From Alphaproteobacteria bacterium (GTDB taxonomy: Bacteria > Pseudomonadota > Alphaproteobacteria > UBA8366), in contig JANQKC010000009.1 of the NCBI GenBank assembly GCA_028281325.1, positions 62,001-126,000 on the forward strand: a stretch of DNA of 64,000 bases. The letters are read 5' to 3'. Positions 42,150-43,255 of the stretch are shown in pieces. Position numbers and translations under genes: made by a program. A model generated the notes under the pieces. It was not told the DNA's origin. It ran no database searches and saw only the letters and a program-made list of their open reading frames with translations. Numbering within the stretch: position 1 is the first letter of the stretch; each line of letters opens with the position of its first letter.

Positions 42150-42932
42150 CTAGTCAGCGGCGGCGTCCGGCTCGTCGTCCCAGACCTTGTCCGGGACCGG
42201 CAACCCCGCGAGATCGTCCGCCGACAACGGCCGATCCGGCGTGATGCCCCGCTGTTCCAGGATCATCGCCGTCTGCCGCACATGCTGGGCCGCGTGCCAG
42301 GCGGTCCGCTCGAACACGTCATGGATCGGCTGGTCGCCGAAATAGGTCGGCACCATCTGTTCGCCGGTGACGTCTTCGAGTTGCAGCCACCACTTCTTCA
42401 CGCGCTTGCGGATGTCGTCGCCATAGGCCGCGATATCCTCGACGGTCGTCATGTCATCCGGCGGAGCCGTGGTGAGCATCTCGTAGCTCAGCGTCCTGCC
42501 CTCTGTCATTTCGAGGAAAGCTTCGGGGATACGGAATATATGGTGTCCCAGCACGAGATAGCTGCGGTCGCGGTTCGGCAGTTTTTCGGACAGCGCTTCG
42601 TTGGGCAATTGCCGCCACAGGCGCTGCGCCGCCGCCAGCACGAGATCGAGTTTGTCGACGAGTTCCGGCATGGACAACGTCGGCGCAACCGACGCGTCGA
42701 TGTCGAGGAATTCCGCGACATCGCGCAACGACTGCGCATAGACGAACTCTTCGCCTTTGGAGACGATGGGAACGGAGGTCGCGCCGAGGCTCGACAACAG
42801 GTCCATGCCCGCCGCGTTGCCTTCGACGTTTACGGATTCATGATCGATATTCTGAGACGAAAGAAACTCTTTCGCACGAAGACAGCTTGTTCACCCAGGG
42901 CGCCAAAAGACCCTGATCGTTTCCTCGGACAC
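42150..42932 (-). CDS. glutaredoxin-DinB fusion, candidate selenoprotein (in-frame TGA)
   Basis: A 260-residue reading if the TGA at 42893-42891 is decoded. GTG at 42932 has AGGAG six bases upstream. Translation gives VSEETIRVFWRPG-TGA-TSC, then LRAKEFLSSQNIDHE and the thioredoxin-fold cis-Pro motif TSVPIV (Pro55). The TGA (codon 14) stands exactly where glutaredoxins have the first Cys of CxxC, with Cys17 kept. Residues about 85-245 are a DinB-like four-helix domain with HH at 130-131 and WHAAQH (His213, His217). A hairpin fitting a bacterial SECIS follows the TGA. If the TGA were a true stop, the remaining frame from the ATG at 42806 would have no ribosome site and would lack half the redox domain. 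Alternatives: sequencing error or a decaying gene. Confidence 0.7.
42850..42880 (-). promoter_or_regulatory. SECIS-like hairpin downstream of the in-frame TGA
   Basis: On the minus strand a perfect six-base stem CGAAAG/CTTTCG closes a five-base loop AGTTT (42874-42858); flanking TTC/GAA can extend it. The loop begins 22 bases after the TGA and has a G among its first two bases, as described for bacterial SECIS elements bound by SelB. The hairpin lies within coding sequence, as bacterial SECIS do. Confidence 0.55.
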
Positions 42933-43255
42933 GTGGTTCTCCTGAAATTGTTGGCCACAGTATAGACGTCGCGGGCGACGCGGCAAATCACATCTGCCGA
43001 TGCCGGCGGGCGCCCACATGATTAATCCTTGTGGATTGATTTGAACAATGCCCGCAACTTGCATTTAAGAAAAATCAAATGATCGAAATTTTGTGACGAG
43101 GATTGATGTAAGAAAGACGTAAAAAATTAAGATAAAATACTATATTTTTGTAATACAATAACACTAACAAGAGTCATCATTACTACTTGAACTGGACAAT
43201 TAAACATATCGGGGGTTTGGGGAAATAGACGAGATTTATAAGGGAATGGAACGCA
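42933..43255. other. AT-rich intergenic region, divergent promoters
   Basis: 323 bases between the divergent glutaredoxin-DinB and dehydrogenase genes, with no gene. It is distinctly AT-rich in its right half and carries a hairpin AATCC-TTGT-GGATT at 43024-43037. Probably holds the promoters of both genes. No known operator recognised. Confidence 0.6.

Follow-up and report, generated by a model that had tools for sequence, protein, structure and literature searches.

A glutaredoxin–DinB fusion gene with a very probable selenocysteine codon in Alphaproteobacteria

The stretch of alphaproteobacterial DNA analysed here (the window, 64,000 nucleotides) contains a reverse-strand gene whose reading frame is interrupted by a single TGA, which raises the question of whether this codon is a site of selenocysteine (Sec) insertion, as an earlier note had proposed, and of what the resulting protein might do. 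The gene structure, the Sec machinery of the genome, the exchange of TGA with Cys codons, a SECIS-like hairpin, the selection acting on the gene and the folds of its product were all computed; the features are collected in Table 1. Read through the TGA, the protein is VSEETIRVFWRPG*TSCLRAKEFL... (the asterisk marks the TGA), with 260 residues and a TAG stop at 42152-42150, and a 246-codon open frame follows the TGA. The latter, codon 14, stands for the first Cys of the glutaredoxin CxxC, as had been claimed, and the second Cys (Cys17) and the cis-Pro (Pro55, in TSVP) are intact. Both domains are recognized by Pfam, Glutaredoxin with 35.1 bits (cut-off 22.9) on residues 7-64 and DinB_2 with 26.6 bits (cut-off 24.8) on residues 95-220, which confirms that a GTG, an AGGAG and one read-through TGA yield a complete two-domain protein; the PF00462 profile matches all 24 aligned members, and P55 is invariant in them. 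Inspection of the sequence revealed no Shine-Dalgarno site close to the ATG at 42806, downstream of the TGA, again in agreement with the earlier note.

Table 1. Positions of the fusion gene and of its elements in the window.
Feature	Position	Strand	Evidence
Gene of the glutaredoxin–DinB fusion, very probably Sec-containing; 260 aa, Sec at codon 14	42150..42932	-	Read-through translation; TGA shared by orthologues and paralogues
Shine-Dalgarno AGGAG, 6 nt 5′ of the start	42939..42943	-	Sequence; AGGAG also precedes the GTG of L030/L023, a relative from the same genus
GTG start codon	42930..42932	-	Sequence; GTG kept in L030
In-frame TGA, putative Sec codon at the first-Cys position of CxxC	42891..42893	-	Sequence, family alignment
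SECIS-type hairpin, 8-bp stem GCGAAAGA/UCUUUCGU, GUU loop at 42867-42865, 23 nt after UGA	42857..42875	-	Frozen synonymous sites in 11 sequences; criteria of PMC13188914
Glutaredoxin domain, residues 7-64	42741..42914	-	Pfam PF00462; fold
DinB_2 domain, residues 95-220, with invariant His131, His213 and His217	42273..42650	-	Pfam PF12867; invariant columns; fold

The loci that were read gave 53 distinct family members; at one and the same codon, 39 of them have TGA and the other 14 have TGC or TGT. A further TGA member (L043, genome G025), frameshifted after the motif, was left out of the 39. Alignment of homologues, which the earlier note had recommended, found Cys codons in some relatives and TGA in the close ones and in others, and TGA members reach down to about 40% identity with the window protein. 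A TGA shared by 39 distinct homologues at this position is not a product of chance. The family is present in 20 of 43 genomes of the same order and in 32 of 385 genomes of a class-wide sample; a phylum-wide sample of 398 genomes returned no member beyond those already found in the class, and a search of viral contigs returned no relatives. The source genome has a second glutaredoxin–DinB copy (G000:C28:57539-58297; L049, L083), which is 49% identical to the first and also has the TGA, with a type-1 hairpin (see below); both copies have TGA in a same-genus genome, and genome G345 contains one TGA copy and one Cys copy. On the family tree, whose deep branches are weakly supported, the SECIS type must have changed at least twice and Sec/Cys at least three times; the support is too weak to give the direction of the Sec/Cys change. 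Cys-form homologues were also seen in plasmid records of two betaproteobacteria, Variovorax and Caballeronia, and on plasmids of Roseomonas and Rhizobium leguminosarum (L132-L135); in the records they are called glutaredoxin-domain or DinB family proteins, and some lie beside amidase, isochorismatase or TPP-enzyme genes.

The AlphaFold2 model of the fusion protein has a mean pLDDT of 92.5. Its N-terminal part matches the glutaredoxin-like 3zit (Z 13.4), cGrx1 7c10 (Z 11.9) and NrdH-like redoxins, and its C-terminal part matches DinB 6iz2 (Z 15.3) and mycothiol S-transferase 8f5v (Z 12.6), with further fold matches to mycothiol-dependent maleylpyruvate isomerase, BstA and ClbS. His131, His213 and His217, invariant across the 24 aligned members, form a predicted metal site. 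Eight DinB/STL proteins of Bacillus are metal-dependent bacillithiol transferases, whose sole fully conserved residues are three His, and in two-domain DinB members the choice of co-substrate is probably set by the extra domain (PMC5815605); a passage of the same paper cites glutathione S-transferases of the DinB superfamily. Since glutathione is the thiol generally used by Gram-negative bacteria, as a passage of PMC4360819 states, the best inference for the enzymatic role is a glutathione/selenol-dependent transferase or reductase, an assignment that we make tentatively. In the product, a UxxC glutaredoxin would be followed by a four-helix domain of the DinB (S-transferase-like) type, in which three His would form a metal site; the N-terminal selenol would most likely exchange with glutathione mixed disulfides or conjugates, the C-terminal metal site would activate glutathione or a co-substrate, and the protein would act on small-molecule intermediates as a glutathione transferase or reductase that depends on Se. 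Metal binding, the use of glutathione and the substrate class are thus predictions, as is a metal-dependent thiol transferase activity of the fusion protein. There is an appreciable, if somewhat doubtful, possibility that the protein is a plain seleno-glutaredoxin whose DinB domain binds a ligand or stays passive instead of acting as a metal-dependent thiol transferase: function is not shown by fold, and some DinB-fold proteins, among them the fold match ClbS, have other roles, but the three His of the expected metal site do not vary among the aligned members.

The source genome (5.1 Mb in 41 contigs, 98.9% complete) contains a tRNA-Sec (selC) with anticodon UCA (76.7 bits), selB (451.6 bits), selA (600.6 bits) and selD (411.7 bits), that is, all four genes for which the earlier note had suggested a search, and a single contig carries selC, selB and selA together. 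This selD has one in-frame TGA of its own, with a 6-bp hairpin (loop GUC) behind it; a second selD, joined to an oxidoreductase-like domain, has no TGA and Cys instead. The two selD loci lie at G000:C17:10982-11911 (L019) and G000:C33:123515-124432 (L020). A second selenoprotein was looked for adjoining selC and was not found there; from reading their sequences, we take the ORFs near selC to be one mandelate-racemase-like and one carboxymuconolactone-decarboxylase-like. The usual main Sec user is formate dehydrogenase. The sole full-length match to its alpha subunit in the source genome (G000:C16:34377-36431, L124) has no internal TGA, and the enzyme is apparently not a selenoprotein here, as judged from its coding sequence; therefore, proteins of the fusion type may help to explain the retention of the Sec system in such bacteria.

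The bSECIS criteria comprise a loop of 3-9 nt, a stem of 4-16 bp, a G within the first two loop positions, a distance of 16-37 nt from the UGA and an MFE of at most -7.5 kcal/mol (PMC13188914). The hairpin of the window gene lies within all these limits, with an energy of -7.7 kcal/mol, and that of the same-genus L030, with -7.4 kcal/mol, falls just short of the energy criterion. Stems of at least 6 bp at bSECIS spacing are found in 39 of 39 TGA genes and in none of the 14 Cys genes. In type 1 (11 genes, including the one in the window), the loop lies 23 nt after the UGA, and the codons AAA GAG TTT CTT TCG are identical in all 11, with synonymous differences in nearby codons. In type 2 (28 genes), a GUG loop lies 37 nt after the UGA and the pairing is kept through two-sided changes; the stem is 91.8% paired and its covariation score of 0.361, against 0.204 when shuffled, was not reached in any of 500 shuffles, but related sequences can beat such shuffles without any structure, and therefore the slid controls, which scored at most 0.111, and the split between TGA and Cys genes weigh more. 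For the window gene alone, an 8-bp hairpin arises in 0.7% of synonymous shuffles; the 58-nt region around the TGA as a whole folds no better than shuffles (z -0.36), and the local hairpin alone stands out. The occurrence of two hairpin positions within one gene family (L038-L048 and L054-L079 versus L029-L037, L049 and L050) provides, inside one coding sequence, a natural test of the permitted distance from the UGA.

The TGA form also goes with selB: of 38 genomes with this form, 34 have selB, as do 3 of the 13 whose family members all lack the TGA, three genomes (G295, G198 and G375) having been put in the latter group by the absence of an internal stop, with the motif unread. The four TGA genomes without a selB match are 64-88% complete; among genomes at least 90% complete, selB occurs in 28 of 28 with TGA versus 3 of 12 with Cys or no-TGA forms only (p = 8e-7). 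Of the 55 selB-positive genomes in the class sample, 18 have the TGA form, compared with 1 of the 330 selB-negative ones (p = 7e-16); both p values ignore kinship among the genomes. Insertion of Sec at codon 14 is, in our view, almost certain; the UGA would be decoded by SelB with Sec-tRNA(UCA), aided by the GUU-loop hairpin 15-33 nt downstream. It is very unlikely that the TGA is read by near-cognate suppression (as Trp or Cys, for example) or in a changed code: an open frame beyond the TGA does not by itself tell which residue is inserted, but the near restriction of the TGA form to selB genomes, a hairpin that fits the bSECIS model, Cys as the alternative residue at a redox site and a tRNA-Sec(UCA) in the genome all speak for Sec.

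Comparison of the window gene with its orthologue from the same genus gave a dN/dS of 0.14 over the 12 codons before the TGA, a stretch with few changes, 0.04 in the rest of the glutaredoxin domain and 0.07 in the DinB part; the second copy shows the same pattern. Purifying selection thus acts before and after the TGA, on codons described earlier as in frame and family-like, and a check for decay by stops or frameshifts in relatives found the frame intact in all those read except L043 of G025. Error or decay is disfavoured because the TGA stands at the same codon across members and copies. A pseudogene, or a sequencing or assembly error, in which the TGA would be a broken Cys codon and either a DinB fragment starting at ATG 42806 or nothing would be made, deserves hardly any credence: a 218-aa ORF does begin at that ATG and the Cys relatives have TGC or TGT at this codon, but the TGA is kept in 39 distinct genes, which come from many assemblies, dN/dS is low on either side of it, it tracks selB, and no ribosome site lies close to the internal ATG. 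The earlier reading of the TGA as Sec is therefore supported by the Sec genes, the TGA/Cys split, the hairpin, the co-occurrence with selB and purifying selection, none of the outcomes that the earlier note had named as refuting it was encountered, and the gene very probably encodes a selenoprotein with a two-domain glutaredoxin–DinB architecture.

Among solved structures, the best sequence match of the fusion protein is cGrx1 (7c10; E 9.4e-12), which we take to be the seleno-glutaredoxin of Clostridium oremlandii. The C. oremlandii glutaredoxin (PF00462, UxxC; PMC13188914, Table 1) likewise has Sec at the attacking Cys; unlike the fusion, the bacterial seleno-glutaredoxin has about 80 aa, stands alone and lacks a DinB domain. 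The DinB/S-transferase-like superfamily (BstA-H, mycothiol S-transferase, YfiT) shares the four-helix fold and the three-His site, whereas the characterised DinB members covered in PMC5815605 have neither Sec nor a glutaredoxin domain. A Sec glutaredoxin-like domain is found also in the UXX-star families and the HUGP/GUXX-star fusion (NF041212, NF041114, NF041211, NF045501); however, these profiles do not cover the DinB domain, and the fusion scores far under their cut-offs. With UXX-star NF041212 it reaches 25 bits, the cut-off being 66, and it was not assigned to that family. The Cys-form proteins, named “glutaredoxin domain-containing” or “DinB family protein”, have the same architecture with 31-46% identity, but carry Cys for Sec and, in the 14 tested, no SECIS-type hairpin.

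In a scan of NCBIfam, no model reached its cut-off with the window protein, and the 24 aligned members matched general glutaredoxin-type models only. A May 2026 review of 119 prokaryotic selenoprotein families and subfamilies has no DinB member, and a literature search for “DinB” and “selenoprotein” as whole words, with a coverage that leaves out most subscription papers and all preprints, returned no paper. The fusion is thus apparently an uncatalogued seleno-glutaredoxin in a new architecture, and it adds a widespread selenoprotein family, considering the share of sampled alphaproteobacterial selB genomes (18 of 55) with TGA forms; standard gene calling would miss such a gene or begin it at the wrong codon. 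A bolder view, which we consider unlikely, is that the glutaredoxin selenol and the DinB metal site, acting jointly in one chain on glutathione conjugates, constitute a new selenoenzyme class, that this class is a common Sec user in Alphaproteobacteria and helps to keep the Sec system where formate dehydrogenase is without Sec, and that the SECIS element moved by 14 nt within the family.

No gene is conserved beside the fusion among 45 regions, and the neighbourhoods are diverse. The neighbours are mostly catabolic enzymes, those that recur in a scattered manner being an amidase (7 loci), a TPP enzyme (6) and gamma-glutamyltransferase (5), the last of which is a glutathione enzyme. In the window, the neighbours between 39461 and 45297 comprise a TPP enzyme, a ChrR-type cupin with two matched stretches and a divergent Glu/Leu dehydrogenase-like gene, followed by an arginase-family gene.
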